DNA from: Lachnospiraceae bacterium
GTDB lineage: Bacteria > Bacillota > Clostridia > Lachnospirales > Lachnospiraceae
Length of the DNA: 63,724 nt
Reading direction: 5' to 3'
Assembly (NCBI GenBank): GCA_017634975.1
Contig: JAGBMJ010000020.1
Location: 1 to 63,724, forward strand
The notes below the pieces were generated by a model that made no database searches, had not been told where the DNA came from, and saw only the letters and a program-made list of their open reading frames with translations. Shown in pieces: positions 135 through 26,629 of this stretch. The first letter of the stretch is position 1. Every line of letters starts with the position of its first letter. The position numbers were made by a program, and so were the translations under genes.

Positions 135-157
135 AAGAGGCGGTTCACACCACCTCT
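131..157 (-). terminator. Intrinsic terminator of lysR
   Basis: On the minus strand, a 9-bp stem (AGAGGTGGT/ACCGCCTCT, one G-U pair) is followed by six T residues. The lysR stop codon lies at the stem-loop boundary, so the last codons of the gene form part of the terminator. It ends the nitrogenase-like operon. Confidence 0.8.
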
Positions 158-1077
158 GATCTTACGCCTGCCAGATAATTCTGCAGTTCCTCGATGTATT
201 CTTCGCCCATCCGGCTTAGGATACTGTTCTTTTTTGTGATATAGCCGATCTCCATAATACTGTTCGGATTCTCTTCATCCTCGTGGAACGGTACCACCAC
301 ATAGCCGTCACCGTTTAAGTCGCCGGAAATGATGCCGGAGCACAGTGTATATCCTTGCAGACCTACCATCAGGTTTAGCATCGTAGATCGGTCATTCACC
401 TTAACCGTCCGCGAATATACCTTCTCGCTCAAAATCTCCTCGGCCAGATAGATCTCATCTTCATCCTGTTCAAAGGAAAGACAGGGATACGGTTCCAGCT
501 GCTCCATACTGATGCTCTTTTCCTTTGCCAACGGATGCTGATCCCAGAGATAGACATATGCCCTGCATTTGATCAGCGGATGAAAGATCACGCCCTGCTC
601 CTTCATCAGCTTATCCAGTGTTTTTTCATTTCTGGCACTTTTATATAGCACACCGATCTCACTTTTTAAGGAGCCTACATCCGTAAGCACCGTCTTGGTC
701 TGTGTTTCGTCGATTGCCAGATCAAACTCCTTCATATCATAGCGTTTCGCCATCTCAACAAACGCTTTTACCGCAAAGGAATAATGCTGCGTGGAGACGC
801 GGAACTTTCTCCGGTAATTACCCTCTCCCTGATACTTCTGCAGCACCAGATTGTAGTGCCGGTAAAGATTGCGGATATCGTTCAGAAACTCCTTTCCTTC
901 CGGGGTGGGGATCACACCTTTGTGTGTCCGCAAAAAGATCGCGATCCCCGCTTCATTTTCCAGTTCCTGAATGGCGCTCGTGAGTGTCGGCTGTACGATA
1001 TACAGTTTTTCGGATGCCCTGCTCATTGAGCCGCATTCCTCGATCGTCAATGCATATAATATCTGCTGTAAGGTCAT
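145..1077 (-). CDS. LysR-type transcriptional regulator of the nitrogenase-like operon
   Basis: A 310-residue DNA-binding regulator of usual LysR length. The N-terminal winged helix-turn-helix is clear (MTLQQILYALTIEECGSMSR start, then SEKLYIVQPTLTSAIQELE at about residues 22-40). It is followed by a periplasmic-binding-like effector domain. It is the last gene of the run nifD-like, nifK-like, nifH-like, nifB-like, MORN-like, lysR, beginning 22 nt after the preceding stop. A LysR-style inverted repeat with T-N11-A geometry lies upstream of the first gene (7152-7172), so it probably controls its own operon. By context the co-inducer would be a sulfur metabolite such as O-acetylserine or O-acetylhomoserine, or an organosulfur compound. 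That part is inference. Confidence 0.9.
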   Translation of the reverse strand: MTLQQILYALTIEECGSMSRASEKLYIVQPTLTSAIQELENEAGIAIFLRTHKGVIPTPEGKEFLNDIRNLYRHYNLVLQKYQGEGNYRRKFRVSTQHYSFAVKAFVEMAKRYDMKEFDLAIDETQTKTVLTDVGSLKSEIGVLYKSARNEKTLDKLMKEQGVIFHPLIKCRAYVYLWDQHPLAKEKSISMEQLEPYPCLSFEQDEDEIYLAEEILSEKVYSRTVKVNDRSTMLNLMVGLQGYTLCSGIISGDLNGDGYVVVPFHEDEENPNSIMEIGYITKKNSILSRMGEEYIEELQNYLAGVRSEVV

Positions 1078-1099
1078 TTTTTAACCCCTTTTCATCGGA

Positions 1100-1909
1100 T
1101 CACATCTTATCAATAATCAGCCGGTAACGTGACCGGTCCCATACTTCTTCTGTTTTCTTATCCAAAGATACACGGATCGTTTCTTCATCCAGTATCACTT
1201 TTACCGCAACCCAGAGCGGAAATCCGGTGTACGGATCTTCCTCAATCCGCGGTACATACTCTTTTACCGTCCCGGTATCCTCCGTGATCACGATCCGATC
1301 CCGTACGGTACAAAAACACCGCAGATCACCGTTATCATCAAAGCCCAGAGACCCTTTTTCCGCATGCATCGGATCCCTGTGTGGATTGAAGGGATGCAGA
1401 GTGCCGAAATCGGTGTAAAGCTCGGCAGCAAAAACACTTTCGATGGATACCAGTCCGCCGTCTTCGTTAAACTCCGCCCCCAGATCCGTGGTAACCATTC
1501 CGTACTTTGTCGCAAAATTCATCCGGTCCTTATTAAAGATCGTAATGCTTTTGACATAACCGCTGCGATCAAAATAAACACACTGCATCTTTGCTTCCAC
1601 GGAACTGTTTCCGACCGACAGCCGGTCCTGATCTGCTTCTTCATACTCATCCTCTTCCGTATGATAGGCACTGATCTTGCCATAGGTCGGAAACACCCTC
1701 TTGATAGTCCCGCATTCATAAAAAGTGACCAGCTCCGCATGAATCCTTCCGACCTGTGTCCAGATCACTGTACGATCCTGCAGGTAGATACTGCGAAGGG
1801 CACCGGAGGGATAACGCTCCAGTGCCTCGCGATAACGTTTCCTTACATCCGAGGAATCATAACAGGGAATCAGATCTCCATATGCTGTTTTGATCCGAAA
1901 AGGAATCAT
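1100..1909 (-). CDS. Unknown protein with MORN-like repeats, in the nitrogenase-like operon
   Basis: A 269-residue soluble protein with no signal peptide or membrane segment. It has about six imperfect beta-type repeats of the pattern Y/F-x-x-x-G-x-(L/V/I)-x-x-(I/V): YPSGALRSIY, YECGTIKRVF, FDRSGYVKSI, FNEDGGLVSI and FDDNGDLRCF. These resemble MORN repeats. I recognise no catalytic motif and no metal-binding cysteine pattern. It sits 32 nt downstream of the NifB-type gene and 22 nt upstream of lysR, so it is co-transcribed with them. It may be an accessory, assembly or sensing factor for the nitrogenase-like complex, but nothing in the sequence proves this. It is not one of the standard nif accessory proteins I know. 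Confidence 0.8.
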   Translation of the reverse strand: MIPFRIKTAYGDLIPCYDSSDVRKRYREALERYPSGALRSIYLQDRTVIWTQVGRIHAELVTFYECGTIKRVFPTYGKISAYHTEEDEYEEADQDRLSVGNSSVEAKMQCVYFDRSGYVKSITIFNKDRMNFATKYGMVTTDLGAEFNEDGGLVSIESVFAAELYTDFGTLHPFNPHRDPMHAEKGSLGFDDNGDLRCFCTVRDRIVITEDTGTVKEYVPRIEEDPYTGFPLWVAVKVILDEETIRVSLDKKTEEVWDRSRYRLIIDKM

Positions 1910-1941
1910 TCCATCCTCTACTCACTTTCTCACACGCCGGT

Positions 1942-3222
1942 TTATCCGTGGCTGAAGTTCTCTACCACTTCCGCATCATAATCCTTGTACAATTCCGTAT
2001 GCAGGTCCTTACCGCTTCCCGGGATACCGATGGCATCCGCTCTGCAGTGTTTGCAGTGACGGAAGACTTCCAGATACTTTCCTGCTTCCGCGCGTACCTC
2101 CTCGAGCATCTTACAATCCGGTGCCGGGATATCCGCCATCTGATTCTGCGGGATCAGCGGCAGGATGTTCAAAAGCGATGCTCCCAGTTCATGCATCTTT
2201 CTCGCTACTTCCGGTATATGCCGGTCATTCACTCCCGGTACCAGTACCGAGTTGATCTTGACAACCAGTCCCAGTTCCGCGGCTTTGCGGATTCCTTCGA
2301 TCTGGTGCGCGATCAGCATTTTTGCTGCCTCTACGCCGGTATGCACGATATTGTTCTCATCCACCACAAATTCGTTGATCTGCGCTTCGATCTCCGGATC
2401 GATCGCATTGACCGTAACCGTTACCGTATCGATTCCCAGAGCCGCCATCCGTTCTACCTTATCCGGCAGCCGGTATCCGTTGGTGGACAAGCAGCATACC
2501 ATCTCGGGATATTCCTTTTTGACCAGCTCAAAGGTATCCAGCGCATTATCGGTCGCAAGAGTATCGCCCGGTCCGGCAATGCCGACCACCGCCAGTTCAG
2601 GACACAGCTCTTTGGCTCTTCGGATAATATCGATGCTTTCCTCGGGCTTCAATACAAGTGAAGAAACCCCGGGACGTATTACCGATTTATCGATCTTACG
2701 TGTACAGAACTTACAGCCGATGTTACATTTGGGACTTACCGGAAGATGGATCCGACCGCGCGAGATGTGCGCTTCGTGAGTCATACAAGGATGCTTTTTG
2801 GCGAGATGTTTGAAATTCGCCAGACTTTCTGATGTGATCGTCTTTATTCGTTCTTTCTCTTTCTCCAGAAATCGCGGGTCTATGATGGAAACCTTTGATC
2901 TCAGCATCGCCTGTAAAACTTTCGGCACACTCTGTTCCATTTCGATCGGTTCGATCTGGTACTGCGCCAGAACCTCTCTTGCTCCTCCGCCGATACACTC
3001 TGCAAATACCGCGTTGCAATCTGCGATAGTATCCGCGACCTTTTGCATTCGGTCCGTGTGGTGCCGGTGTTCCAGACAAGCCTTATCTACCAGCCGGATA
3101 TCTACTTTTTCATATTCCTGTGCTTCTGTGTCCACTTCGTAGATATCGAAGCGTTCCGCCGCACCAAAGTGACGGTCCACACAAAAGCCCATACTCGTCG
3201 CAAATGCAACTCTGGTCTTCAT
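1942..3222 (-). CDS. NifB-type radical SAM cofactor maturase with N-terminal NifX-like domain
   Basis: NifB builds the carbide-containing 8-iron precursor cluster of nitrogenase-family cofactors from two 4Fe-4S clusters and SAM. This 426-residue protein has the NifB signature HPC-x(19)-CNIGCKFC (residues 145-173; SAM-cluster cysteines C166, C170, C173), the AGPGD motif, and the C-terminal CKHCRADAIGIPG segment. Residues 1-110 form a NifX/NifB-accessory-like domain (RVAFATSMG, HFGAAERFDIYEV). In classical NifB that domain is C-terminal, so the order here is swapped. The start is placed at the ATG preceded by AGGAGA; an upstream in-frame extension lacks a ribosome site. It follows nifH by about 90 nt, with a GC-rich hairpin between. 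This is a strong sign that the complex carries a NifB-derived cofactor. Confidence 0.9.
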   Translation of the reverse strand: MKTRVAFATSMGFCVDRHFGAAERFDIYEVDTEAQEYEKVDIRLVDKACLEHRHHTDRMQKVADTIADCNAVFAECIGGGAREVLAQYQIEPIEMEQSVPKVLQAMLRSKVSIIDPRFLEKEKERIKTITSESLANFKHLAKKHPCMTHEAHISRGRIHLPVSPKCNIGCKFCTRKIDKSVIRPGVSSLVLKPEESIDIIRRAKELCPELAVVGIAGPGDTLATDNALDTFELVKKEYPEMVCCLSTNGYRLPDKVERMAALGIDTVTVTVNAIDPEIEAQINEFVVDENNIVHTGVEAAKMLIAHQIEGIRKAAELGLVVKINSVLVPGVNDRHIPEVARKMHELGASLLNILPLIPQNQMADIPAPDCKMLEEVRAEAGKYLEVFRHCKHCRADAIGIPGSGKDLHTELYKDYDAEVVENFSHG

Positions 3223-3261
3223 AATGCTTTTCTCCTGATCTTTTTTCTTTTTAACACGATC

Positions 3262-3289
3262 CGGGAGCCCCCTGAATGCCCCCGGAGCA
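3262..3289 (-). other. Intercistronic hairpin between nifH-like and nifB-like genes
   Basis: TCCGGG and CCCGGA arms flank a C-rich centre in the 90-nt gap. There is no T-run, so it is more likely an mRNA-stabilising or partial-attenuation hairpin than a full terminator. It would favour higher levels of the reductase (NifH-like) message over nifB. The interpretation is inferred. Confidence 0.45.
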
Positions 3290-3311
3290 GTGTTTTGCAA
3301 ATTATTTATTC

Positions 3312-4220
<909 letters not shown>

Positions 4221-5546
4221 TTACCGATAGGTTGCCAATACTCTGTCAAAGATATCTTCTATGGTACGCAGGCCGCCTTCGTAACCGGTATACCCGCAGT
4301 TCATGATCAACCGGTATTTTACCGGTACGGTTACGATCAGCAGATCTGCGTGCAATCTTGATGCCAGCCCTTTCTCCCAGGCACTGCCCAGAAGCAGGAT
4401 CCTCTTGTCCGGATACTTTTTCGCATCCTCCTCGATCAGCAGCTGTGCTGCTCCCGCGTCCGGATCGAAACGCACTTCAATGTCTCTCTTTCTTCCCAGA
4501 TTGGAGATCTCCTCGTATTCTTTCCGCACCGCTTCCTGAAATTTCTCCGGTGTATCATCTACGATGTTCTGCATCGCCGGGATGATGCCCAGCTCGTTGA
4601 GCAGAAACTTGGAGAAGCCCAATGCCGTGGAAGCATCCGCTACCGTGTAAAGTCTTCTCGGTGTTCCGTAACGGAACTCCAGCAGAAATGATGCCATCTT
4701 GTCAATGTGTGCGTAATACTTGCGTTCCTCTTTTTCGATATAAGGTTCTGCATCGATCCCCGCAAACTCCGCTACCTTTCGTAAGAAGCGGCTGGTCTCT
4801 ACCGCGCCCACCGGCAGATACGGAAACTGTACATACGGTGTTTTGTATTTGGCCTTCAGATGCTTTACGATCCCAAGTCCTACCCAGGGGCCGACCAGAA
4901 TGTTGAACTCCGCTTTCGGGATCGTCTTCCATTCTTCCACTCCTCCGGATTCCTGTCCGAAAAGAATGTTGACTTTCAGTCCGATGCCTTCCAGTACTCT
5001 TTTCAGTCCCTCCAGATTTCCGTTCCAGAACGGATCCTGATACGGTATGGAAGCGAATACATTGACCAGACCTTTTTCAACTTCCTTATCTTCCGCAAAC
5101 TTGTCAACGTATTGATCGACGATCGCATTGACCAGTCTTTCGTGTGCCACGTAATTGCTGCTCTTGAATCCACCGGCCTCGAGATAAACCACCGGTTTGT
5201 CCTGCTCCTGAAACTCTCCTACGACCGCTCCAAGATCATCACCGGTGATCGCTGCCGTACATCCCGTGATCACTACATACAGATCACCGTCAATGACTTT
5301 GAACGAATTCTCGATAACACTTCGTAATTTCTTTTCTCCGCCGAATACCACATCCTGCTCTTCCGCATTGGTACAGGGTGCTGTCGATCCTCCGGCATAT
5401 CCTTCGCCCTGGCCGATCAGTTCTCCGATCTTTCCGCCGCATCCGGGACCGGAATGCAGGATCGGTACGCCTCTCTTGATCGCCACTACACTCTGGCAGC
5501 TGCCGAGTGCACATGTAAATCTCGGTTGTTCTATTGTTGATGACAC
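4221..5546 (-). CDS. Nitrogenase-like component 1 subunit, NifK-type
   Basis: This 441-residue subunit should pair with the 5568-7070 product. P-cluster-type cysteines are visible: C12 and C17 (FTCALGSCQS), C36 (HSGPGCGGK), and C96 (VVITGCTAAITGDD, the segment matching the third P-cluster cysteine of NifK). It also has the component-1 motif CTNAEEQDVVFGG. It is shorter than NifK (about 520) and close in size to uncharacterised nitrogenase-like subunits. The start has a GGAGGAG ribosome site. It lies 21 nt after the NifD-like gene and 39 nt before nifH. With no nifE/N in the window, the pair is the catalytic component rather than a scaffold. The substrate is unproven; context points to sulfur compounds. 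Confidence 0.88.
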   Translation of the reverse strand: MSSTIEQPRFTCALGSCQSVVAIKRGVPILHSGPGCGGKIGELIGQGEGYAGGSTAPCTNAEEQDVVFGGEKKLRSVIENSFKVIDGDLYVVITGCTAAITGDDLGAVVGEFQEQDKPVVYLEAGGFKSSNYVAHERLVNAIVDQYVDKFAEDKEVEKGLVNVFASIPYQDPFWNGNLEGLKRVLEGIGLKVNILFGQESGGVEEWKTIPKAEFNILVGPWVGLGIVKHLKAKYKTPYVQFPYLPVGAVETSRFLRKVAEFAGIDAEPYIEKEERKYYAHIDKMASFLLEFRYGTPRRLYTVADASTALGFSKFLLNELGIIPAMQNIVDDTPEKFQEAVRKEYEEISNLGRKRDIEVRFDPDAGAAQLLIEEDAKKYPDKRILLLGSAWEKGLASRLHADLLIVTVPVKYRLIMNCGYTGYEGGLRTIEDIFDRVLATYR

Positions 5547-5567
5547 TTTTTTCTCCTCCGCCTTCTC

Positions 5568-7070
5568 TTATAATTCCGATACCGGTCTGCCGCCCGGACA
5601 TTTTCCGGAACCGCCGCTCTGGAAGTATCCGGGTTCCTGTTCCAGCCACCATTTGGTATATGGCTTGCTGGCATGTTCCGAATAGTTACTGATGAATTCT
5701 ACGGAGTCCAGCGCATCTTCGATCCTTCTTGCATAATTCAGCGCACCGTTGTATCCGATACCGAACTGCTCATCACCGATCAGCAATGTCGGGATGCCGA
5801 GTTTTGCGCCCCACAGCGTCATACCGCCGTGTCTTGCCAGGATCAGATCCGGACGGATCCGGTTGAGTGCGTTTACCAGCTCAAAGGATTGCTTGTTGCA
5901 TACCTGATAATTCTTAACATCGCCGTAGATCTGCACTGCGTGCTGCAGTACATCCATCTCCGGATCACCGCTGTCGTATACAGGATCGTGGTGGAACACG
6001 CTCGCTCCCATCACTTCAAATCCGAGCTCCGAAAGCAGATGGATCAGCGCCTGTCCGTGTGCTGCACCGGCCATTACATAAGCCGTTTTTCCTTTGAAGT
6101 TTTCCTTCAGTTTCTCGATCTTCGGAACGATATCCCGATGACCTTCCGCAATGATCTCTTCTGCCACTTCCGGCTTGCCGAGTACCTTTCCCAGTGCTCT
6201 GAGCCACCGGTCGGTACCTTCCACACCATAGGCCGGCGGGGCTGTGATCTCCGGCACACCGTACAACTGGTTGAGTCCCGCTCCCATATATGTGGAAAGG
6301 GAAGGACAGATATGGATCGTTGCCGCTGCTTCCGAGCATTCCTGCAGCTGTTCGATCGAGGAGAACGGCATCAGATATCTGGTCTTGTAGCCGAACCTCG
6401 CGATGATATCGTCAAATACGTGGCTTCCCCAGAAGTTCACGACATTCACGTAATCTGCTTTTTTCTTCGGCGCCTTTACAATGTTACGCAGCACCGTGTG
6501 ATAAGCCGCATCGAATCCGGTCGTCCATACCTTGGAGCGGAAGCCGTCACAGGTACAGGTAGCTACCGGGATGCCCAGTTTTTCGGTCAGCTTGTGTGCC
6601 GCTCCTTCGATGTCCTCACCAATAATGCCGGCCGCACAGGAAGTCGTGATAAAGATTGCTTTGGGATGTACCCTCTCGTATGCTTTTTCCACGGTCGCTT
6701 CCAGCTTTTTGACTGCACCGAACACGGTATCCTGTTCCGTGATATTCGTGGAAAAATATCTTCCGTCACGCTCCGGCAGGTTTCTGCGTTCCTGTTCGAT
6801 CCGATAGGTAAAATTAAAATCTATAAAATCGCCTGCACAGCCTACCGGCGCGTGGTTGACGACTGCTACATCGTCGATCATCGACAGCTGGCAGAAGGCC
6901 TGTCCGGAATTACATCCGAGACACTGTGAAAATTTTCTTTTACTGTCTTTCAGATTACCGGAATGCGATTTTTCTACCAGTTCTTCCGCCGTTCCGGAAT
7001 AGGCATTGATCGTTCCGAGTCTCTTTTCCCGGATCAGCACTGCCGGTTCGTCAAGATTGATATGAGACAT
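5568..7070 (-). CDS. Nitrogenase-like component 1 subunit, NifD-type (putative catalytic subunit)
   Basis: This 500-residue subunit is the first gene of the operon. Conserved cysteines are C50/C53 (FSQCLGCNSGQAFC), C78 (APVGCAGD) and C145 (TTSCAAGIIGEDIEG), matching the NifD P-cluster ligands. C255 (HICPSLSTYM) aligns by eye with the NifD cysteine that holds the active-site cofactor. The region where NifD has its second cofactor ligand, a histidine, reads GIPTLLIGDEQFGIGYNG and contains no histidine. H360, H361 and H414 lie elsewhere. This fits a cofactor-binding enzyme that is not a standard nitrogenase. Nearby methionine and methanethiol genes suggest C-S bond reduction, as for the MarD subunit of methylthio-alkane reductase. 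That function is inference. Confidence 0.88.
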   Translation of the reverse strand: MSHINLDEPAVLIREKRLGTINAYSGTAEELVEKSHSGNLKDSKRKFSQCLGCNSGQAFCQLSMIDDVAVVNHAPVGCAGDFIDFNFTYRIEQERRNLPERDGRYFSTNITEQDTVFGAVKKLEATVEKAYERVHPKAIFITTSCAAGIIGEDIEGAAHKLTEKLGIPVATCTCDGFRSKVWTTGFDAAYHTVLRNIVKAPKKKADYVNVVNFWGSHVFDDIIARFGYKTRYLMPFSSIEQLQECSEAAATIHICPSLSTYMGAGLNQLYGVPEITAPPAYGVEGTDRWLRALGKVLGKPEVAEEIIAEGHRDIVPKIEKLKENFKGKTAYVMAGAAHGQALIHLLSELGFEVMGASVFHHDPVYDSGDPEMDVLQHAVQIYGDVKNYQVCNKQSFELVNALNRIRPDLILARHGGMTLWGAKLGIPTLLIGDEQFGIGYNGALNYARRIEDALDSVEFISNYSEHASKPYTKWWLEQEPGYFQSGGSGKCPGGRPVSEL

Positions 7071-7151
7071 TTCTTTTTTCCTCCGATTTCTAAACTTGAT
7101 TTATCGTAACATCCGTTTTCCGTGATGTAAAATTGTCTGATTCTATCGAGT

Positions 7152-7172
7152 GCTATCAATAAATTTTATAGC
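7152..7172. promoter_or_regulatory. Candidate LysR operator upstream of the nitrogenase-like operon
   Basis: A perfect inverted repeat GCTAT-N11-ATAGC is centred 92 nt upstream of the NifD-like start codon. Its inner T and A are exactly 11 bases apart, the T-N11-A geometry of LysR-type sites. A TTGATA hexamer overlaps its downstream side on the minus strand and could be a -35 box, but no good -10 follows. The co-transcribed LysR protein is the obvious candidate binder. Confidence 0.55.
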
Positions 7173-7221
7173 TACGTGTTTTTGCTTTACGCTATTGCCT
7201 GCCTCTTTGTTTGCAAACAAG

Positions 7222-7416
7222 AAAGCGTTCTGCCTGCAGAACGCTCGCGCCGAGCGCGGTTGCGATAGCAACACATTCCTTACGCGCGATAGATGATTTT
7301 CTTACGGTTTTACCGTTAGAAAATCACTATGCGTAACGTAGTGAAGAAGTACGCATCCCCCGGAGGGCTTTTTTGCTTTATAGGAATTGCAGAGCAATTT
7401 CCTATAAAGCAAAAAA
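7222..7416. repeat. Intergenic mosaic of short palindromes, copy B
   Basis: Long relative of 3-134, with the same order of hairpins (GCGTTCTGC/GCAGAACGC, GTTGCGATAGCAAC, TATAGGAATTGC/GCAATTTCCTATA). An extra block of about 60 nt holds two more hairpins, GATTTTCTTACGGT/ACCGTTAGAAAATC and CACTA..TAGTG. It lies between the Rrf2-gene terminator and the promoter region of the nitrogenase-like operon. The two copies bracket that operon plus lysR. Confidence 0.75.
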
Positions 7417-7436
7417 GGCGGTCCAGTCAGGCCGCC
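7411..7436 (-). terminator. Intrinsic terminator of the metY-to-Rrf2 operon
   Basis: On the minus strand a 7-bp stem (GGCGGCC/GGACCGCC type) is followed by six T residues, 27 nt past the Rrf2-gene stop. It separates the methionine operon from the nitrogenase-like operon. Confidence 0.85.
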
Positions 7437-7462
7437 CGGTATTCTTAGATGGAAATGTACGA

Positions 7463-7903
7463 TCAAATCACGTAATTATCCCACCCATCAGATACACCGC
7501 TGCGCGCCTGCGCGACAAATTCACTCAGAGACATTCGGTCCGTGTATTCTTTCAGATTGCCATTGATCTTCTGCCAGAAAAAACCGTTGATCACCGGGCG
7601 CAATCCGCCTTCCTCCCCTTCCGTATCCGTACCGGCTAATAAGGTATTGTCCAATGCATTTAACACATCGGAAAGTTTCACACACTCCGGTTTACAGGAC
7701 AACACGTAGCCGCCGCGAAGCCCTTTTTGTGCCGTGATAAATCCGGCCTGTCTGAGCGGCAGTAAGATATGTTCCAGATATTTATGCGAAATATTCTGTC
7801 TTTTGGCAATGTCCGGTGCTGATACACTCTGCCCGTTTTCGCAATGGATCACTATATCCGTCAGTGCGATCAAACCGTACTCCACTCTGGTCGATACTTT
7901 CAT
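7463..7903 (-). CDS. Rrf2-family regulator, CymR-like (sulfur metabolism)
   Basis: A 146-residue winged-helix regulator: MKVSTRVEYGLIALTDIVIH start, then the recognition region IAKRQNISHKYLEHILLPLRQAGFI, and the Rrf2 wing GLRGGYVL. The triple-cysteine Fe-S motif of IscR and NsrR is absent; only isolated cysteines occur. This agrees with the CymR type, which represses cysteine-uptake and synthesis genes in Bacillus through complex formation with CysK. The start is the ATG behind AAAGGAGCAGGAA; the upstream in-frame extension has no ribosome site. As the last gene of the metY-SDR-mccBA-metNI operon, it is well placed to sense cysteine status and repress this operon and possibly its neighbour. 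CymR identity is by context. Confidence 0.85.
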   Translation of the reverse strand: MKVSTRVEYGLIALTDIVIHCENGQSVSAPDIAKRQNISHKYLEHILLPLRQAGFITAQKGLRGGYVLSCKPECVKLSDVLNALDNTLLAGTDTEGEEGGLRPVINGFFWQKINGNLKEYTDRMSLSEFVAQARSGVSDGWDNYVI

Positions 7904-9686: not shown

Positions 9687-10610
9687 TTAATCAAACAACC
9701 CCTTGCTCAGATAACGGTCACCACGATCCGGGAAGATCGTTACCACATTTCCATGATCCAGCGTCTTTGCCAGTCTGATCGCAGCCGCAAGCGCTGCACC
9801 GGAAGAAGAACCTGCCAGGATGCCTTCCTTTTTTGCCAGCAGTCTGGCGGTATCAAACGCTTCCGAATCCGAGATCTTGATCACCTGATCCACCAGCGTG
9901 ATGTCCATGGTATCTGCAATAAAATCATTTCCGATGCCTTCGATATCATAATCAAAGTGCTCACCGCCACCAATGATAGAGCCCAGCGGATCCGCCAAAA
10001 CACCCTGTATCCCGCTGTTTTGCTCCTTTAAGTATTTCACGACACCGCTGAAGGTGCCTCCGCTGCCGGCCCCGGCAACAAAGATGTCGATCTGCCCGTC
10101 CAGCTGCTGATAGATCTCCGGTCCGGTCGTCTCATAATGCGCTTTCGGATTCGCCGGATTGTTAAACTGCTTTAAAGAAATGGCCCCGGGGATCTTTGCT
10201 ATGATGCGGTCCGCTTCACGGTCTGCTCCAAGCATCCCTTCCTCTCTCGGCGTATGTACGATCTCTGCACCGAGCGCCCGCATGACCTTTTGCTTTTCCA
10301 CTGAAAACTTTTCCGGTACGGTAAAGATCACGCGAAATCCCTGATTGAGTGCTGCGATGGCGATACCGATACCGGTATTTCCTGCCGTCGCATCTACAAT
10401 CGTTCCGCCTTCCTTCAGGATGCCCCGTTCTTTTGCATCATCGATCATGTACATACCGACACGGTCTTTTACACTGCCGGCCGGATTCATCAATTCCAGT
10501 TTTGCATAAAGTCCGACCTTAGGATCAATCCCGGCTGCCGCTGCAATCTGATTTAATTTCAATACCGGTGTATTTCCGATCATTTCCCGAACGCTGCTAT
10601 ATACATTCAT
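9687..10610 (-). CDS. mccA: O-acetylserine-dependent cystathionine beta-synthase / cysteine synthase
   Basis: A PLP fold-type II enzyme of 307 residues. The PLP lysine is K48 in NPAGSVKDR, the glycine-rich phosphate loop is TAGNTGIG, and the serine PLP-pyridine contact is in GILAGSSSGAA. The length and the immediately upstream cystathionine gamma-lyase (24 nt) match the Bacillus mccA-mccB pair, which converts homocysteine to cysteine by reverse transsulfuration. A plain cysteine synthase (CysK) role cannot be excluded from sequence, so the symbol rests on gene context. It is followed closely by metN in the same operon. Confidence 0.85.
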   Translation of the reverse strand: MNVYSSVREMIGNTPVLKLNQIAAAAGIDPKVGLYAKLELMNPAGSVKDRVGMYMIDDAKERGILKEGGTIVDATAGNTGIGIAIAALNQGFRVIFTVPEKFSVEKQKVMRALGAEIVHTPREEGMLGADREADRIIAKIPGAISLKQFNNPANPKAHYETTGPEIYQQLDGQIDIFVAGAGSGGTFSGVVKYLKEQNSGIQGVLADPLGSIIGGGEHFDYDIEGIGNDFIADTMDITLVDQVIKISDSEAFDTARLLAKKEGILAGSSSGAALAAAIRLAKTLDHGNVVTIFPDRGDRYLSKGLFD

Positions 10611-10633: not shown

Positions 10634-11782
10634 TTATTTGGATGCCTCGATCGCCTGCTTCAGATCGGCGATAATGTCATCCACTCCTTCGATACCAACC
10701 GAAAGACGGATCAGCTCATCCACGATACCGACACTTTTACGGATATCTGCAGGGATCGCTGCGTGCGTCATGCTTGCCGGATGACATACCAGTGACTCCA
10801 CACCGCCCAGACTTTCTGCCAGAGTGACCAGTTTTAAGTTCTTAAAGAATTTCTTATAATCATATTTTGCATCCAGTACAAACGAGATCATTGCTCCCGC
10901 TCCGTCTGCCTGCTTCTTCTGCACTTCATAGCCCGGATCCGATTTTAATCCCGGATAATATACCTTGCTCACATATCCGCTCCGTTCCAGCCATTCCGCG
11001 ATCTTCTGTGCATTCGCCACATGCCGGTCCATCCGGACACCAAGTGTTTTGATACCGCGAATCATCAGGAAGCTGTCCCAGGGTGCGAGTACTCCGCCGA
11101 TCGCATTCTGCAGATAATACAGGCGGTCTGCCAGCGCTTTGTCATTGACCACCACAAAACCGGAGATGGTATCGCTGTGTCCGCCCAGATATTTCGTACC
11201 GCTGTGGATCACAATATCTGCTCCCAGAGTCAGCGGTCTCTGAAGATACGGTGTTAAAAACGTATTGTCCACGATCAGCAGTTTGTTATGCTTCTTTGCG
11301 ATCTTTGATACTGCAGCGATATCGGTTACCGTCAGCAGCGGATTCGCCGGACTTTCCACATATACGGCTTTCACATCTTCATCGATCGCTGCCTCTACCG
11401 CTGCCTGATCCGAAGTGTTTACGATCTTGTAGGTGATGCCGAAATGGCGGAAGACATTATCCAGGATACGAAAGGTACCACCGTATATATTGTCGGATAC
11501 CACCAGTTTATCACCGCTCTTAAACAGAGAAAGAACGGTATTGATCGCTGCCAGTCCGGATGCAAATGCCAGCCCGTACTGTCCCTGCTCCAGATCTGCG
11601 ATCAGTTTTTCCACTGCGGCTCTGGTCGGGTTACCGGTTCTGGAATACTCCCATCCCCGATTTTCTCCCAAGCCATCCTGTTTATAGGTTGAAGTCTGAT
11701 AAATAGGAACATTTACTGCTCCTGTGGTGTCGTCTCCGTCCTGACCACCGTGTATTAATAATGAGTTGATAGATATTGCCAT
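10634..11782 (-). CDS. mccB: Cystathionine gamma-lyase / homocysteine gamma-lyase
   Basis: A PLP fold-type I Cys/Met-metabolism enzyme of 382 residues. The PLP lysine is K197 in HSGTKYLGGHSD, and the substrate-loop motif is IYQTSTYKQD...GWEYSRTGNPTR, characteristic of MccB and MetC/MetB relatives. It would cleave cystathionine to cysteine, 2-oxobutyrate and ammonia, and may also release H2S from homocysteine. It forms a tandem with mccA downstream and follows the SDR gene by 34 nt. MetB (cystathionine gamma-synthase) is the main alternative. Confidence 0.87.
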   Translation of the reverse strand: MAISINSLLIHGGQDGDDTTGAVNVPIYQTSTYKQDGLGENRGWEYSRTGNPTRAAVEKLIADLEQGQYGLAFASGLAAINTVLSLFKSGDKLVVSDNIYGGTFRILDNVFRHFGITYKIVNTSDQAAVEAAIDEDVKAVYVESPANPLLTVTDIAAVSKIAKKHNKLLIVDNTFLTPYLQRPLTLGADIVIHSGTKYLGGHSDTISGFVVVNDKALADRLYYLQNAIGGVLAPWDSFLMIRGIKTLGVRMDRHVANAQKIAEWLERSGYVSKVYYPGLKSDPGYEVQKKQADGAGAMISFVLDAKYDYKKFFKNLKLVTLAESLGGVESLVCHPASMTHAAIPADIRKSVGIVDELIRLSVGIEGVDDIIADLKQAIEASK

Positions 11783-11816: not shown

Positions 11817-12620
11817 TTATGCGGTCAGCAGCCCTGCGTCCAAAACAAACTGGCTGCCGGTTAAAAATCTTGCCCGATCACTTGCGATATATTTAAATGC
11901 CTCCACGATATCCACGGTCTCCAGCCAGGGTGTCCGGAGCAGATTGCCTGCGGATCGTTCTGCGATCTCCGTAGGCGTGGTTCCTTCCAGTTCTGCCAGC
12001 CCGTCGTTCATCGGCGTATTCACACCGGTCGGATGCAGCGACACCACACGGATCCCGTAAGGCGCCAGCTCGATCGCCTGTGATTTGGTCAGCCCTACCA
12101 GTCCGTGTTTGGATGCACTGTAATGTCCCATACGATTAAAACCACGAAGTCCGGCAACGGAAGAATTATAAATGATCACGCCTTTTTTCTTTTCGATCAT
12201 ATGCGGGATCACATATTTGGATACCAGCCATCCACCACGCAGATTGATATCGATCATCGCATCCCATTCTTCTTCCGTCAGTTCCCAGGTCTTTCCGTAT
12301 GCTGCGATCCCGGCATTGCTGAAAAGGATATCGATCGTTCCAAATTCCCGAACGCCTCGCTCTACCGCTTCTTTTACATCCTCTGCCTTACGCACATCCC
12401 CGGCATAGATGAGGATCTTTCCGCCTTTTGCGATCACATCATCTTTAAGCTTCTCCAGATCATCATTGGAAGATCGATTGTATGCCGGAAACGGGATCTT
12501 CTCTCCCAGGTCAAACGCGATGATATTGGCTCCGTCTTCTGCCAGTGCCAGGGCTACTGCTCGCCCCTGTCCCTTGGCTGCACCGGTAATGAATACTGTT
12601 TTATTCGTAAAATCGCCCAT
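11817..12620 (-). CDS. Short-chain dehydrogenase/reductase, mycofactocin-type subfamily
   Basis: A 267-residue NAD(P)-dependent oxidoreductase with the Rossmann motif TGAAKGQGRA (residues 12-21), NAGI, and catalytic S154, Y167 and K171. After the second strand (IIAFDL) there is an insertion of about 20 residues (KIPFPAYNRSSNDDLEK). Together with GxGQGR, this resembles SDRs that hold their nicotinamide tightly and are coupled to mycofactocin in actinobacteria. No mycofactocin genes are in the window. It lies between metY and mccB, so its substrate is probably a sulfur-containing alcohol, aldehyde or ketone. If the neighbouring nitrogenase-like enzyme uses 2-methylthioethanol, reduction of methylthioacetaldehyde would be a fitting but speculative job. 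Confidence 0.82.
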   Translation of the reverse strand: MGDFTNKTVFITGAAKGQGRAVALALAEDGANIIAFDLGEKIPFPAYNRSSNDDLEKLKDDVIAKGGKILIYAGDVRKAEDVKEAVERGVREFGTIDILFSNAGIAAYGKTWELTEEEWDAMIDINLRGGWLVSKYVIPHMIEKKKGVIIYNSSVAGLRGFNRMGHYSASKHGLVGLTKSQAIELAPYGIRVVSLHPTGVNTPMNDGLAELEGTTPTEIAERSAGNLLRTPWLETVDIVEAFKYIASDRARFLTGSQFVLDAGLLTA

Positions 12621-13943: not shown

Positions 13944-14016
13944 TGTTTTATCCTCCTAAACTGTGTTTGAATTATTTTGTTATACTTTCGTTCATTGCCG
14001 TCGCTCTGACAGTCAT

Positions 14017-14047
14017 AAAAAAACCGGGACCTTTTTGGGTTCCGGGC
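14017..14047 (-). terminator. Attenuator terminator in the metY leader
   Basis: On the minus strand an 8-bp stem (CCGGAACC/GGTCCCGG with one G-U) and a 6-nt loop are followed by seven T residues. It ends 74 nt before the metY start, inside the leader. Its ascending arm GCCCGGAAC (minus strand of 14039-14047) is perfectly complementary over 9 nt to GTTCCGGGC (minus strand of 14133-14141) within the upstream peptide gene. The terminator and an antiterminator are therefore mutually exclusive. Confidence 0.9.
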
Positions 14048-14071
14048 ATAAGACCTTTCTACGAGTTTACA

Positions 14072-14197
14072 TCAACATCGTACTATATCAGGGTGATTCC
14101 GCAGTACTTCATACACCCCGGTCACAAAACAAGCCCGGAACTTAAACATTCGACAGCAACACATGCTATTCTCTTGTCTTGTCTTTGTTTCGGACAT
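14072..14197 (-). CDS. Cysteine-rich leader peptide of the metY operon
   Basis: A 41-codon reading frame with an excellent ribosome site (GGAAGGAG, 8 nt before ATG). It has three consecutive cysteine codons at positions 13-15 in the context SMCCCRM, plus further cysteines at 23 and 41 and methionines at 12 and 17. It ends 25 nt before an intrinsic terminator that precedes metY. The 9-nt antiterminator strand begins 10 nt after the last of the triple Cys codons. A ribosome stalled there for lack of cysteinyl-tRNA would leave that strand free to open the terminator. A ribosome that finishes the peptide allows termination. This is classic attenuation logic and predicts induction on cysteine limitation. 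No other function is suggested for the peptide. Confidence 0.85.
   Translation of the reverse strand: MSETKTRQENSMCCCRMFKFRACFVTGVYEVLRNHPDIVRC
14133..14141 (-). promoter_or_regulatory. Antiterminator strand within the leader peptide gene
   Basis: GTTCCGGGC (codons Phe20-Arg21-Ala22 of the leader peptide) is the exact reverse complement of the 5' arm of the attenuator terminator at 14039-14047. Pairing would block the terminator hairpin. Confidence 0.75.
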
Positions 14198-14249
14198 TAC
14201 TTTATCTCCTTCCTTTACATTTCTTTCACATCACTTTCGTGATGATGCA

Positions 14250-14278
14250 ACTATAGCATTATTTACCTACTATGTCAA
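14250..14278 (-). promoter_or_regulatory. Sigma-A promoter of the metY operon
   Basis: Minus strand: -35 TTGACA (14273-14278), 17-nt spacer, -10 TATAGT (14250-14255). Transcription should begin near 14243. The transcript then starts with a small stable hairpin (CATCAC-GAAA-GTGATG), followed by the leader-peptide ribosome site. Confidence 0.9.
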
Positions 14279-14420: not shown

Positions 14421-16982
14421 TCACGTATTATTGTTGCCGAATGCTCCGCTGAATACTTTCTTCATTTCCGTATTATCTGCATACAAAGGAGCATTTTCAT
14501 TCCCGTTTTCCGGCTTCTCCGGCTGTGCGGGTGTACCACCATACAACGGATTGTTATTCTGCTGCGTCACACTATTTCCGCTTACCGGAAACGGTGCCGG
14601 CTGCTGTGCAGGTGTACTTGCGTATAGCGGATTGTTGTTCTGCTGGGTCGGGGCACTGTTTCCACCAACCGGAGACTGTACCGGCTGCTGTGCCTGCGTG
14701 TTTGCATACAGCGGATTGTTGTTCTGCTGCGTCGGGGCACTGCTTCCGCCTACCTGCGACGGTGCCGGCTGCTGCGCAGGTGCGTTTGCATACAGCGGAT
14801 TGTTGTTCTGCTGCGTCGGGGCACCGCTTCCGCCGATCGATGATGGTGTCGGCTGTTGTGTAGTCACACTGTTATCCGGGACATTTTCCGTCTGTGTCGC
14901 CGGAGCATTGGACGCCGGACCGCTGCTTACCTCGGTCGGAGACACTCCCAGCGGTAGTGTAGCTGCCTGGGAAGACTGCTGTACCGCTGTAGCACCTCCG
15001 CCCAGCGGAAGTACCGCCGGATGAGAGGATGCATATGCCATAGCCTTGAGCAGTTCTGCTCTTGCCTCTTCCTCTTTCCTTGTTTTCTCAGCTTCTTCCT
15101 TCTCTTTTCTTGCCTTTTCGGTCGCTTCCACATCGATTTCTCCGAAGATGTTGCGTACCGTTATGTCTCCGTCTGTCGATCCGGCATTCTGTGTCGGTGC
15201 ATTCCCGATCGGCACCGCCGGATTCTGCACTGGTGTATTTCCGAGAATCGATGCCGGTTCCTGCTTCGGTGCGTTCCCAAAGATCGATGCCGGTTCCTGC
15301 CCCGGTGTATTTCCGAGAATCGATGCCGGTTCCTGCTTCGGTGCGTTCCCAAAGATCGACGCCGGTTCCTGCTTCGGCTCATTTCCAAGGATTGATGCCG
15401 GTTCCTGTTTCGGCTCATTTCCAAGGATTGACGCCGGTTCCTGCTTCGGCTCATTTCCGAAGATCGACGCCGGTTCCTGCTTCGGTTCACTTCCGAAGAT
15501 CGACGCCGGCTCCTGCTTCGGCTCATTTCCGAAAACCGACGCCGGTTCCTGCTTCGGCTCATTTCCGAAGATCGACACCGGTTCCTGTTTCGGTTCACTT
15601 CCAAAGATTGACGCCGGTTCCTGCTTCGGTGCGTTCCCAAAGATCGACGCCGGTTCCTGTGCCGGAGCATGCGATCCTATTCCCGTGCCTGGGAAAGAGC
15701 CTGTAGATACGGCCGGCCCCGTGGGCTGACTTCCGAGAGATTGCGTCGGTCCTAAGGGCTGTACGGACTGTGTTGCTGCCGCAAAACCACCAAGAGCAGC
15801 GCCTTGTGTCTGCGGATTTGCAATTGCAGATCCGAATCCTCCCTGCACATTCTGCGGCTGCGGACTTCCAAATGCTGCACCCATATTTCCGGCTGCATTC
15901 TGTGTCGGCTGACCTCCCATCGGAGTCCCAAAGCTTCCCTGCATATTCTGCGGTTGCTGGCCTCCAAAAGCTGCACCCATATTTCCGGACGCATTCTGTG
16001 TCGGCTGACCTCCCATCGGAGTCCCAATGCTTCCCTGCATATTCTGCGGTTGCTGGCCTCCAAAAGCTGCACCCATATTTCCGGACGCATTCTGCGTCGG
16101 CTGACCTCCCATCGAAGTTCCAAAGCTTCCCTGCATATTCTGCGGTTGCTGGCCTCCAAAAGCTCCTCCAAAATTACTCTGTGTGTTCTGTGGCTGACCG
16201 CCTGCATACGGATCCACGTTATTTATGGTTCCATTCTGCGCCTGCGGAGCTCCAAAACCTGTGCTGCCAGCATTTCCGGACTGCGGTACAAAACCTGCAT
16301 TCGTTGCTTTTGGCGCGCCGTATAATGCGGTCTGGTCTCCGCTCTTATTCCTAAACATCACAAAGAGGATCCCACCCGTGATCAAAAGACAAATGATACC
16401 CGCGATTGTCATTCCTTTTACCGCTCCGGGTGCCATAATGGGTTCAAACATCACCGGAAGCATATAATCCTCCAGATCCTCTCCGGGATAAACCTTTGAT
16501 TCGATCTCTTTTCGCAGATCATTCGGGATCTTTACCAGTTTTCCGTCAAAGTGCATAGTACTTGTCGGTATCGTAGTAAAATCCTCATCAGTTGCCCACC
16601 AGTCATCCGATTTGCTGATCTGGCTATCCATCGCAGAATTAAAGCTGCTGGGGATCTTTGCAAGTAGAAACGGTGTCGGGTAAATGTAGTCTTTATCCTC
16701 ATCCTGGCAAAAAGGTATCACATAATAACGTCCGGTTTCCCGCTCCGAAGTCGTTACGCCGTAAGTCTTTGACTGTTCTACCTGCGAACCGATCTGATCC
16801 CATACCAGCGTGACATCGAAACATATATGATCCCCCGCTTTAAGGTTGCTGTAATCGTAGTCCCACAGATTGGTAATGTCTTTCACCGGTTTGGAAAGAC
16901 ACATCCAATCCCTTATACCCAAGAACGTCAAAACAACGCCGATCGTCGCAAGCGCTATAAATAATCTGGTTTTCAGCTTCAT
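14421..16982 (-). CDS. Two-TM membrane protein with very long low-complexity repeat tail
   Basis: An 853-residue protein of unknown function. Residues 5-22 form a signal-anchor helix. Residues 30-185 are an ordered domain, probably outside the membrane, and residues 190-210 a second helix. The rest (about 640 residues) is low-complexity. It holds G/Q/N-rich 32-residue repeats (about 270-400), thirteen copies of a 12-residue repeat xPKQEPASIFGN (about 440-595), a short charged helix (EKARKEKEEAEK, about 620-650), then 28-residue repeats containing APTQQNNNPLYAN (about 720-825). If the second helix returns the chain inside, the tail is cytoplasmic. It has its own promoter and terminator, so it is monocistronic. 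The tail suggests a disordered scaffold or tether. Copy number probably varies between strains. Confidence 0.85.
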   Translation of the reverse strand: MKLKTRLFIALATIGVVLTFLGIRDWMCLSKPVKDITNLWDYDYSNLKAGDHICFDVTLVWDQIGSQVEQSKTYGVTTSERETGRYYVIPFCQDEDKDYIYPTPFLLAKIPSSFNSAMDSQISKSDDWWATDEDFTTIPTSTMHFDGKLVKIPNDLRKEIESKVYPGEDLEDYMLPVMFEPIMAPGAVKGMTIAGIICLLITGGILFVMFRNKSGDQTALYGAPKATNAGFVPQSGNAGSTGFGAPQAQNGTINNVDPYAGGQPQNTQSNFGGAFGGQQPQNMQGSFGTSMGGQPTQNASGNMGAAFGGQQPQNMQGSIGTPMGGQPTQNASGNMGAAFGGQQPQNMQGSFGTPMGGQPTQNAAGNMGAAFGSPQPQNVQGGFGSAIANPQTQGAALGGFAAATQSVQPLGPTQSLGSQPTGPAVSTGSFPGTGIGSHAPAQEPASIFGNAPKQEPASIFGSEPKQEPVSIFGNEPKQEPASVFGNEPKQEPASIFGSEPKQEPASIFGNEPKQEPASILGNEPKQEPASILGNEPKQEPASIFGNAPKQEPASILGNTPGQEPASIFGNAPKQEPASILGNTPVQNPAVPIGNAPTQNAGSTDGDITVRNIFGEIDVEATEKARKEKEEAEKTRKEEEARAELLKAMAYASSHPAVLPLGGGATAVQQSSQAATLPLGVSPTEVSSGPASNAPATQTENVPDNSVTTQQPTPSSIGGSGAPTQQNNNPLYANAPAQQPAPSQVGGSSAPTQQNNNPLYANTQAQQPVQSPVGGNSAPTQQNNNPLYASTPAQQPAPFPVSGNSVTQQNNNPLYGGTPAQPEKPENGNENAPLYADNTEMKKVFSGAFGNNNT
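14540..14860. repeat. Coding tandem repeat, 84-bp unit, about 4 copies
   Basis: The unit encodes 28 residues (NNNPLYANAPAQQ-PAPSQVGGSSAPTQQ, split by variants) in the C-terminal part of the repeat-rich membrane protein. The ATTGTT(G/A)TTCTGCTG core recurs at 84-nt spacing. Confidence 0.8.
15202..15668. repeat. Coding tandem repeat, 36-bp unit, 13 copies
   Basis: Thirteen imperfect copies of a unit encoding (E/A/T)PKQEPAS(I/V)(F/L)G(N/S). Copies differ mostly at third-codon positions and by E/A/T at the first residue, so they are fairly old but still in frame. Confidence 0.9.
15850..16195. repeat. Coding tandem repeat, 96-bp unit, 3-4 copies
   Basis: The unit encodes GGQQPQNMQGSFGTPMGG plus QPTQNASGNMGAAF (32 residues). 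The CATATTCTGCGGTTG core recurs exactly every 96 nt. The units are nearly identical at DNA level, implying recent duplication. Confidence 0.85.
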
Positions 16983-17168: not shown

Positions 17169-20413
<3,245 letters not shown>

Positions 20414-20426
20414 AAAACTTCCTCCC

Positions 20427-21911
20427 TTACAAATACGAATATCCCATCAACGCTTCGTCTACCGCCTTGGCTGCCTCGCGCCCTTCATGGATCGCCCATA
20501 CCACCAGAGACTGTCCCCGGTGCATATCCCCTGCGGTAAATACCCCCGGAACGGAGCTTGCGTACTGTCCTGCCTCGGTCTTTACATTGGTCCGGCCATC
20601 CAGTTCCACGCCGAAGGCATCGGTCACATATTTCTGGCTTCCGAGGAACCCTGCTGCGATCAGTACCAGATCACAAGGTACTTTGCTTTCACTGCCCTCG
20701 ACCGGCACCATCATCATACGTCCGCTCTTCGGATCCTTCTCGCCTTTCAGTTTCACCAGCACCGCCTGCTTCACGTTTCCTTTTTTATCCTTGATAAACT
20801 CTTTTACCGTAGTTGTATAAACACGCGGATCCTGCCCGAATACTTCAATGGCTTCCTCCTGGCCGTAGTCGGTTTTCAAAACCCTCGGCCACTCCGGCCA
20901 CGGATTATTTGCCGCTCTCTCGCTCGGCGGGCAGGGCATCATCTCCAGCTGCGTTACCGAGGCGGCCCCCAGGCGGATCACGGTACCGACACAGTCATTA
21001 CCGGTATCACCACCGCCGATCACGATGACATGCTTATCCTTCGCCAGTTCATAAGGCGGCTTTTCAAAATCCGTATCCAATAACTGTCTGGTTACTTTCC
21101 CGAGAAAATCAACCGCAAAATAAATCCCGTTGGCATCTCTTCCCGGTGCATTGATATCACGCGGGTTGGATGCCCCGCAGCAAAGGACTACGGCATCGTA
21201 TTCTTTTTTCAATTCTTCGGCTGTGATATCCACACCGACATTCACACCTGTTTTAAAGACCACGCCCTCTTCTTCCATGACCTTTACACGACGGTCGATC
21301 ACGGACTTATCCAGTTTCATATTCGGGATGCCATAACGCAGCAGTCCGCCGATCCGGTCGTTGCGTTCATATACCGTTACCAGATGGCCCCTGCGGTTGA
21401 GCTGCTGTGCCGCCGCCAAACCGGACGGTCCGCTGCCGATCACGGCTACTTTCTTACCGCTGCGTACGGCAGGGATCACCGGCTGCACCCAGCCTTCCTG
21501 ATACGCCGTCTCGATGATCGCCTTTTCATTCTCCTTGGTCGATACCGGATCCCCGTTTAAATTGCAGGTGCAGGCCGCCTCACACAATGCCGGACACACC
21601 CTGCAGGTAAACTCCGGAAAGGAGTGTGTCTTGGACAGCCGCAGATACGCCTGCTTCAAGTTACCGGTATACACCAGATCGTTGGTCTCCGGTACCAGAT
21701 TGTGGAGCGGACATCCGCTGGCCATACCGGAAAGCATCCCGCCATACTGGCAGAACGGAACACCGCATGCCATACAGCGTGCCGCCTGCCTGCGCTGCTT
21801 TTCCATATTGAGTCTTCCATGAAACTCCTGAAAGTTCTGTATTCTTTCTTTTACAGGTACTACCTTTCCGTCTTCCCTGTCATATTCCATAAAACCTGTT
21901 GCTTTTCCCAT
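20427..21911 (-). CDS. gltD: Glutamate synthase small (beta) subunit
   Basis: A 494-residue FAD/NAD(P)H oxidoreductase that feeds electrons to GltB. N-terminal cysteine clusters for two 4Fe-4S centres are CMACGVPFC and CRVCPALCEAACTC. The FAD site is VAVIGSGPSGLAAAQQL and the NAD(P) site HVIVIGGGDTGNDC. The start is the ATG with GGAGG six nt upstream, 14 nt after the gltB stop. A nearer in-frame start would overlap gltB and lacks a ribosome site. Confidence 0.95.
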   Translation of the reverse strand: MGKATGFMEYDREDGKVVPVKERIQNFQEFHGRLNMEKQRRQAARCMACGVPFCQYGGMLSGMASGCPLHNLVPETNDLVYTGNLKQAYLRLSKTHSFPEFTCRVCPALCEAACTCNLNGDPVSTKENEKAIIETAYQEGWVQPVIPAVRSGKKVAVIGSGPSGLAAAQQLNRRGHLVTVYERNDRIGGLLRYGIPNMKLDKSVIDRRVKVMEEEGVVFKTGVNVGVDITAEELKKEYDAVVLCCGASNPRDINAPGRDANGIYFAVDFLGKVTRQLLDTDFEKPPYELAKDKHVIVIGGGDTGNDCVGTVIRLGAASVTQLEMMPCPPSERAANNPWPEWPRVLKTDYGQEEAIEVFGQDPRVYTTTVKEFIKDKKGNVKQAVLVKLKGEKDPKSGRMMMVPVEGSESKVPCDLVLIAAGFLGSQKYVTDAFGVELDGRTNVKTEAGQYASSVPGVFTAGDMHRGQSLVVWAIHEGREAAKAVDEALMGYSYL

Positions 21912-21925
21912 GATATCCTCCAATC

Positions 21926-26428: not shown

Positions 26429-26496
26429 TTTTATCTCTCCTCCTTCGCTTGGTTGCTCTGCCGTTTCGTAAAGCGACAGCCGCCTTTAAACCTGTA

Positions 26497-26625: not shown

Positions 26626-26629
26626 AATC

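Follow-up and report, generated by a model that had tools for sequence, protein, structure and literature searches.

The DNA analysed here, a stretch of 63,724 nucleotides (hereafter the window; contig JAGBMJ010000020.1 of the Lachnospiraceae bacterium assembly GCA_017634975.1), contains an operon for a nitrogenase-like enzyme with D, K and H subunits, which adjoins an operon of sulfur genes. We conclude that the enzyme, a member of Group IV-A (the NflDK1/NfaDK clade), is probably a nitrogenase-like, ATP-dependent C-S reductase that feeds MetY and that is a sister of methylthio-alkane reductase (MAR), not MAR itself. As far as sequence can tell, this reading is carried by the genes themselves, the cluster ligands, the clade, a conserved sulfur context, and the missing nif and sulfate/sulfite genes. 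The original prediction had likewise named an organosulfur reductase whose thiol product is captured by MetY. The MAR-like D and K subunits and a sulfur context conserved beyond this genome speak for that part, but the enzyme is not a MAR orthologue and its H is of the NifH type; the prediction had missed the latter, along with the NflDK1/NfaDK identity, the co-occurrence with MarDK and an ammonium-assimilation cluster upstream.

The operon consists of six co-directional minus-strand genes running from 7070 to 145, with intergenic distances of 21 to about 90 bp:

5568..7070, minus strand: D subunit, MarD/NflD1-like and catalytic, 500 aa; PF00148; best match Rhodospirillum rubrum MarD
4221..5546, minus strand: K subunit, 441 aa; PF00148; best match R. 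rubrum MarK
3312..4181, minus strand: H, NifH-type reductase component, 289 aa; PF00142, TIGR01287
1942..3222, minus strand: NifB-like radical SAM (S-adenosylmethionine) protein with a NifX-like domain N-terminal to it, 426 aa; Nitro_FeMo-Co and Radical_SAM
1100..1909, minus strand: gene without family, 269 aa; relatives in the operons of L006, L007, L009, L011, L014 and others
145..1077, minus strand: LysR-type regulator, last gene of the operon; PF00126/PF03466

All six genes were found where predicted, with families assigned by Pfam scan and the cluster residues intact, and matches to PF00126/PF03466 verified the LysR gene. The label 'MORN-like' given to the gene at 1100-1909 finds no support, as neither Pfam nor NCBIfam yielded a match for it. 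A terminator scan placed a terminator-like stem at 157-136, which closes the LysR gene. The loci compared, among them the best 80 of 115 related ones with flanks of up to 10 kb, are denoted by L-numbers (L005 is contig C133 of the same genome), and family genomes by G-numbers.

Resemblance and phylogeny of the D and K subunits

In a search of solved structures, the top match for D was R. rubrum MarD (9FMG; 422 bits), followed at 124 bits by the best other family, and that for K was R. rubrum MarK (383 bits), followed at 57 bits by the next; by these scores both subunits resemble MAR much more than any nitrogenase. Both exceed the cut-off of PF00148, whereas the NCBIfam subfamilies listed (NifD, NifK, NifE, VnfD, AnfD, BchN, BchB and others) all remain under cut-off. 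Identity to R. rubrum MAR is 41-43%, and alignment of window D with MarD showed the P-cluster residues Cys53, Cys78 and Cys145 to be intact together with Cys255, Arg413 and His414. The three P-cluster cysteines of MarD and its Cys270, Arg428, His429, His375, Trp195 and Phe199 all have an identical residue in window D; MarD His194 is replaced by Val181. K has Cys at all three MarK P-cluster positions. The site-lining residues Cys60-Gln61, Trp182, Phe186 and Arg413-His414 of window D are MAR-like and not NifD-like. Roles for the MarD residues, including the Arg428-His429 hallmark and the Cys270 ligand, are given in the accessible text of PMC12552129. The hallmark and the Cys ligand are both present in window D (Arg413, His414, Cys255); since the Arg-His pair also occurs in further Group IV clades, it is not diagnostic of MAR alone.

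The input for the trees comprised the related loci, the second DK pair of the genome (contig C133), nif loci and others, one 724-aa row being excluded; the careful D tree retained 56 rows after removal of seven long-branch rows and 10 of the 18 nif rows. A 39-row clade (bootstrap/Shimodaira-Hasegawa-like approximate likelihood ratio test (SH-aLRT) 100/99) unites window D with MarD, away from NifD and NifE. Within it, window D falls into a 30-row clade (100/99) composed of subclades A1 (21 rows, including the window) and A2 (nine rows), and R. rubrum MarD forms a separate three-row clade with rows from L031 and L026 (100/100). A quick K tree was concordant. D and K thus group with MAR-like proteins and outside the nitrogenase and NifEN scaffold clades, the outcome on which the original prediction had staked itself, and the D and K trees rule out the cofactor scaffold NifEN as their identity. 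Forcing MarD into A1 cost 49.6 log units (approximately unbiased (AU) test, p 1.7e-11), for a group picked after inspection of the tree. At the position equivalent to MarD 194, the three MarD rows have His and the 30 window-type rows have Val, Ile, Met or Gly. D proteins of at least 50% identity occur in three of 60 family genomes (the bacterium's own, G004 with 52% and G040 with 50%). A further clade of seven Group IV D rows (L033, L036, L039, L043, L091, L110 and L111) keeps the hallmark His but not the Arg, and has Tyr for Phe199.

Both types of protein can be found together. L031 and L026 are loci that each encode a window-type protein as well as one of the MarD clade (the L031 MarD at about 80% identity), and in Heliophilum fasciatum two DK pairs stand on different contigs, one 81-82% identical to MarDK and the other of window type, 60-62% identical to the pair of the window. 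By this co-occurrence the two types are paralogous enzymes that have both been retained, and on the separate clades, the co-occurrence and the AU test we rejected plain orthology with MAR.

The Heliophilum genome also supplies the name of the clade. Its window-type DK pair lies at C7:113691-116475, with a NifH-like gene (C7:116744, 338 bits) directly behind. The available text of PMC9147875 describes five Heliophilum pairs, NflDK1-5, of which NflDK1 adjoins the sole nifH-like gene, groups with Endomicrobium proavitum NfaDK (Group IV subgroup A) and is predicted to fix N2. By its gene place in that description the window-type pair matches NflDK1, and the MarDK-like pair (near 81% identity) is consistent with NflDK5; two weaker PF00142 matches on Heliophilum contig C3 (289 and 256 bits) may represent BchL and BchX of bacteriochlorophyll synthesis. 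Membership of window D and K in Group IV-A follows from the clade that they share with Heliophilum NflDK1 in the D and K trees, and that of Endomicrobium NfaDK is taken from the text of PMC9147875, not from a sequence comparison of our own.

Sulfur genes, genome content and regulation

Upstream of D, on the same strand, lie the following features:

7071..7462, minus strand: spacer that holds a terminator-like stem (near 7417-7436) and, before D, a conserved block (probable promoter region)
7463..7903, minus strand: Rrf2-family (CymR-like) regulator; PF02082; NF047409 CymR 73.8 bits (cut-off 195), IscR 70.6 bits
7977..8630, minus strand: MetI-like ATP-binding cassette (ABC) permease; PF00528
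8633..9640, minus strand: MetN-like ABC ATPase; open reading frame (ORF) with homologues in L008 and others, named by resemblance, without family scan
9687..10610, minus strand: MccA/cysteine-synthase family; TIGR01136 341.1 bits, slightly under the cut-off of 344.15
10634..11782, minus strand: MccB/cystathionine gamma-lyase family; NF005810 546.6 bits, under the cut-off of 594
11817..12620, minus strand: short-chain dehydrogenase (SDR); PF00106
12642..13943, minus strand: MetY family (O-acetylhomoserine sulfhydrylase); TIGR01326 409 bits, under the cut-off of 495.1
14016..14278, minus strand: possible cysteine attenuator, with promoter-like site, Cys-rich leader ORF and terminator-like stem

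The predicted sulfur neighbours were thus recovered, MetY, SDR, MccB, MccA, MetI and Rrf2 by family scan and MetN by resemblance. MccAB works in the methionine-to-cysteine direction.

To determine how far this setting is conserved, we counted genes near 82 window-type D proteins, which form 30 clusters at 82% identity; identical proteins and overlapping copies (L001-L004, L086) had been removed. At 61 of the 82 loci, and in 23 of the 30 clusters, at least one of MetY, MccB and MccA is encoded no more than 8 kb from D. The same genes were found in none of 20 random stretches from 11 genomes and at none of 11 nif loci of the same class (Fisher p 2.4e-8 and 1.0e-5, respectively, on clusters). NlpA-type binding proteins accompany 15 of the 30 clusters and NMT1-type proteins 13, and a homoserine acyltransferase (PF04204) occurs in one cluster (10 loci). 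None of the sulfur, transport or acyltransferase genes counted was found at 12 of the 82 loci (4 of 30 clusters), several of which are on contigs that end nearby; since some contigs end near D, the context counts are lowered. In L006, L009 and L012, whose D proteins are 90, 76 and 78% identical to that of the window, an ABC transporter and an NlpA-type protein stand behind NifB inside the nitrogenase-like operon itself. The closest relatives of the host bacterium are of rumen origin, and our literature search found no work on nitrogenase-like enzymes jointly with methanethiol and the rumen.

A genome-wide profile search revealed four PF00148 matches, which make up two DK pairs, both outside NifDKEN in the trees; NifE and NifN are not among the four. 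The best NifV match of the genome (152.9 bits) is far under the cut-off of 462.9. There is no genome match to PF01507 (phosphoadenylylsulfate/adenylylsulfate reductase) or PF01077 (sulfite reductase) and none over cut-off to AsrC, so the bacterium would need reduced sulfur. Of the four PF00142 matches in the genome only H is strong; the remaining three score 45 bits or less. The second DK pair (L005 9558-12421, plus strand, contig C133) is preceded by an ABC transporter of the SBP_bac_3 type. Its D is near MarD on a long branch; some 0.6 kb past this D the contig ends, and no H is seen there. With a single strong NifH in the genome and no H seen on C133, H is probably shared by both pairs. In 5 of 19 related-locus genomes (L009, L012, L048, L084 and L085; completeness not given), a PF00148 pair is the sole one at E 1e-15. 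When the window, L006 and L005 were searched against Rfam at gathering threshold, the sole match was a GA-cis RNA in L005 (2286-2372, plus strand, contig C133; 69.6 bits).

Judged by eye on the minus strand, the 392-bp gap before D opens with a stem (five G-C pairs) that runs into six T; the terminator scan reports the palindrome at 7417-7436 on the plus strand only, not on the coding strand. The sulfur genes look like a transcription unit separate from the nitrogenase-like genes, and we rejected a single unit for both on this by-eye stem, which the scan lacks on the coding strand. By eye, the upstream block of D is common to L006, L007 and L008. The region before metY has a possible cysteine-attenuation layout: a promoter-like site at 14278-14250 (top-ranked in the scan with 11 of 12 matches), a leader ORF at 14197-14072 (41 aa) with consecutive Cys-Cys-Cys codons, and overlapping stems, the last of which ends at about 14016, is followed by seven T and is not reported by the terminator scan. 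L006, L007 and L008 have the leader ORF too; in L015 and L016, MetY is preceded by shorter ORFs with M-CC-RML. Weak points of the attenuator are an ordinary folding energy (z -1.18), the frequency of small ORFs with three Cys (141 across all loci), 12 amino-acid-changing against 3 silent codons of 42 between the leaders of the window and L006, and a promoter scan that gave 11 sites overall, fewer than in shuffles (18.1). Between the MetY and D upstream regions of the window, three 13-base words match with one mismatch; L006 and L008 have no such word, and we claim no shared operator. The region further upstream encodes an 853-aa protein (14421-16982, minus strand) with a DUF6709 match at its start, followed by long EPKQEPASIFGN-like and QPQN-like repeats.

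H, NifB and competing explanations

According to the C-S reductase reading, the H dimer would hand electrons to a (DK)2 tetramer, which would hold a P-cluster and a NifB-made Fe8S9C-type cluster ligated by Cys255 and His414. An organic sulfur compound, probably imported via the linked methionine-type ABC transporter, would have its C-S bond cleaved by (DK)2; the freed thiol (or sulfide) would be captured on O-acetylhomoserine by MetY, and MccA and MccB would transfer the sulfur to cysteine. Expression of the sulfur operon would probably be induced by cysteine shortage, through leader-peptide attenuation and the CymR-like regulator. In this scheme the cluster type, the C-S chemistry, the product and the regulation are inferred.

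Window H, in which the P-loop and Cys94/129 are intact, scored 472 bits with Clostridium pasteurianum NifH (1CP2) and 291 bits with MarH, whereas Heliophilum H scored 494 bits with MarH and 295 with NifH. Its TIGR01287 score (nitrogenase iron protein) is 451.3 bits, over the cut-off of 394.35. In the H tree, it groups with C. pasteurianum NifH and NifH from nif operons (19 rows, 98/97), and the MarH-type rows form a separate clade of 10 (98/95). Within 8 kb of D, the 15 loci of the window lineage have a NifH-type H in 13 cases and none in two; the 28 other A1 loci have MarH-type in 10, NifH-type in one and none in 17; and the 39 A2 loci have NifH-type in 28, MarH-type in two and none in nine. 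Of 60 NifB ORFs, 15 have the NifX-like domain ahead of the radical SAM domain (the 14 identified by name all belong to the window lineage), three have it behind, and 42 gave no match to it. The available part of PMC5715403 describes three NifB architectures, none with NifX in front, and six motifs, of which ExRP is required. Window NifB keeps five of the six (HPC, Cx3Cx2C, AGPG, TxTxN and Cx2CRxDAxG) and has VIRP in place of ExRP; ExRP is absent from 15 of 15 window-lineage proteins and kept in 44 of 46 others. Eight of the 17 proteins without ExRP also lack the Cx2CRxDAxG pattern, which the window's keeps.

Several observations weigh against the C-S reductase reading. H is of the NifH type, and without ExRP in the NifB of this lineage the cluster may differ. 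MetY, MccB and MccA are missing within 8 kb in 7 of the 30 D clusters. A modA gene scores over cut-off on contig C45 of the genome, so the noted absence of Mo-transport genes fails at genome level, while that of NifEN, and of NifV over cut-off, held. Completeness of the assembly is rated at 99.13% and contamination at 7.46%. An ammonium-assimilation cluster (18758-34492, minus strand) encodes AsnB, GltD, GltB, a glutamine amidotransferase, an AmtB-PII fusion and type III glutamine synthetase (GSIII), with a methyl-accepting chemotaxis protein gene in between; its distance is about 5-20 kb from metY, on the upstream side, and 12-27 kb from D. Finally, 15N2 uptake in E. proavitum and predicted diazotrophy of Heliophilum are described in the accessible passages of PMC9147875 and PMC11257099, the N2 claim being repeated from Zheng et al. 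2016 in those of PMC11257099 and PMC8399215.

A wider proposal, which we put forward tentatively and rate below the C-S reductase reading of the window enzyme, is that all of Group IV-A ('Nfa') constitutes a second Fe8S9C-type C-S reductase family with a non-MAR substrate. The window lineage would then have swapped its reductase for a NifH-type protein, rearranged its NifB and maybe acquired a variant cluster. Methyl-sulfur roles have been proposed from gene context for Group IV-A genes near mlp clusters, as the text available of PMC10418091 states.

The enzyme could instead be MAR itself, with the R. rubrum substrates 2-methylthioethanol and dimethyl sulfide and a role in methylthioadenosine (MTA) salvage. 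MAR is by far the best characterised match and has the same ligands, but the identity of 41-43%, the separate clade and the AU result for a group chosen post hoc make this unlikely, as do the presence of both MarD and window types in L031 and Heliophilum (and of a MarD-clade row in L026), the lack of His at the MarD 194 position in all 30 window-type rows and an H that is not MarH-type. The R. rubrum route leads from MTA to 2-methylthioethanol; the genome has no match to MtnA, and this route is therefore not expected.

Still less probable is a Group IV-A nitrogenase that fixes N2 without NifEN, as claimed for E. proavitum NfaHDK and predicted for Heliophilum NflDK1. The window D and K do belong to the clade of Heliophilum NflDK1 (identified by gene place), H is NifH-type, and GSIII, AmtB-PII and glutamate synthase genes lie further upstream. 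The residues lining the active site, however, are MAR-like, NifEN and a NifV over cut-off are lacking in the genome, and the conserved neighbours are sulfur genes that are absent near 11 nif loci. Nor is the ammonium cluster next to metY elsewhere: hexapeptide transferase, ThiF and JAB proteins precede MetY in L006, and in L008 the genes at this place appear, by eye, to encode an NlpA-type fragment, an adenylate-forming enzyme and an aminotransferase, so that the ammonium cluster is not a conserved neighbour there. MAR, which bears the same Arg-His hallmark, does not reduce N2 according to the accessible text of PMC12552129. The literature on N2 fixation and the NifH-type H nevertheless keep this explanation alive, at a low probability.

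A sulfonate reductase like IsrHDK that releases sulfite is highly improbable: Isr is a Group IV enzyme with proposed C-S cleavage, also reported from intestinal bacteria (PMC11423573), and NMT1-type transporters accompany 13 of the 30 window-type clusters, but IsrD has one of three P-cluster Cys and no Cys/His cofactor ligands (PMC11423573), all of which window D has, and with neither AsrC over cut-off nor PF01077 sulfite reductase in the genome a sulfite-releasing enzyme could hardly feed biosynthesis, so that we rejected this identity.

Implications and comparison with known systems

Group IV-A, taken mainly for a nitrogen-fixing family to date, has been assigned either N2 fixation (PMC9147875, PMC11257099 and PMC8399215) or, from gene context, methyl-sulfur metabolism (PMC10418091), as far as the accessible text of these papers goes. 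The window lineage offers a clean case, in which two DK pairs accompany a single NifH, NifEN is absent, neither a sulfate nor a sulfite reductase was found in the genome, and a sulfur operon adjoins. If the wider C-S reductase proposal were true, N2 fixation credited to Group IV-A would need another explanation. The window system may further represent a natural case of a nitrogenase-type Fe protein that serves a sulfur enzyme, and gut nifH surveys such as PMC4995403, judged from its available portion, might count such an H as a nitrogen fixer.

MarBHDK of R. rubrum (PDB 9FMG) shares with the window HDK, a NifB-like gene and a methionine/sulfur setting, as well as equivalents of the P-cluster Cys, the Cys270/His429 ligands, Arg428, Trp195, Phe199 and His375. 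The window differs by its 41-43% identity, a separate clade that co-occurs with MAR, the exchange of His194 for Val, a NifH-type H, NifX in front in NifB and the lack of MtnA in the genome. NflDK1/NfaDK of H. fasciatum and E. proavitum have no NifEN either, and Heliophilum NflDK1 is in the same clade (D 60%, K 62%); they differ in that the literature assigns them N2 fixation, whereas the window-type neighbours are MetY, MccA, MccB and methionine-type transporters, and in that Heliophilum H is MarH-type and window H is NifH-type. The MarHDK-like genes beside type I mlp clusters share the Group IV-A label and a methionine/sulfur link, by their description in the available text of PMC10418091. 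IsrBHDK of Rhodobacter capsulatus is also a Group IV enzyme with proposed C-S cleavage, but lacks the P-cluster Cys set and the cofactor ligands and has another radical SAM protein (PMC11423573). Mo-nitrogenase NifHDK, lastly, is linked to the window by an H close to C. pasteurianum NifH; window D and K lie outside its clade, in a genome without NifEN or a NifV over cut-off.

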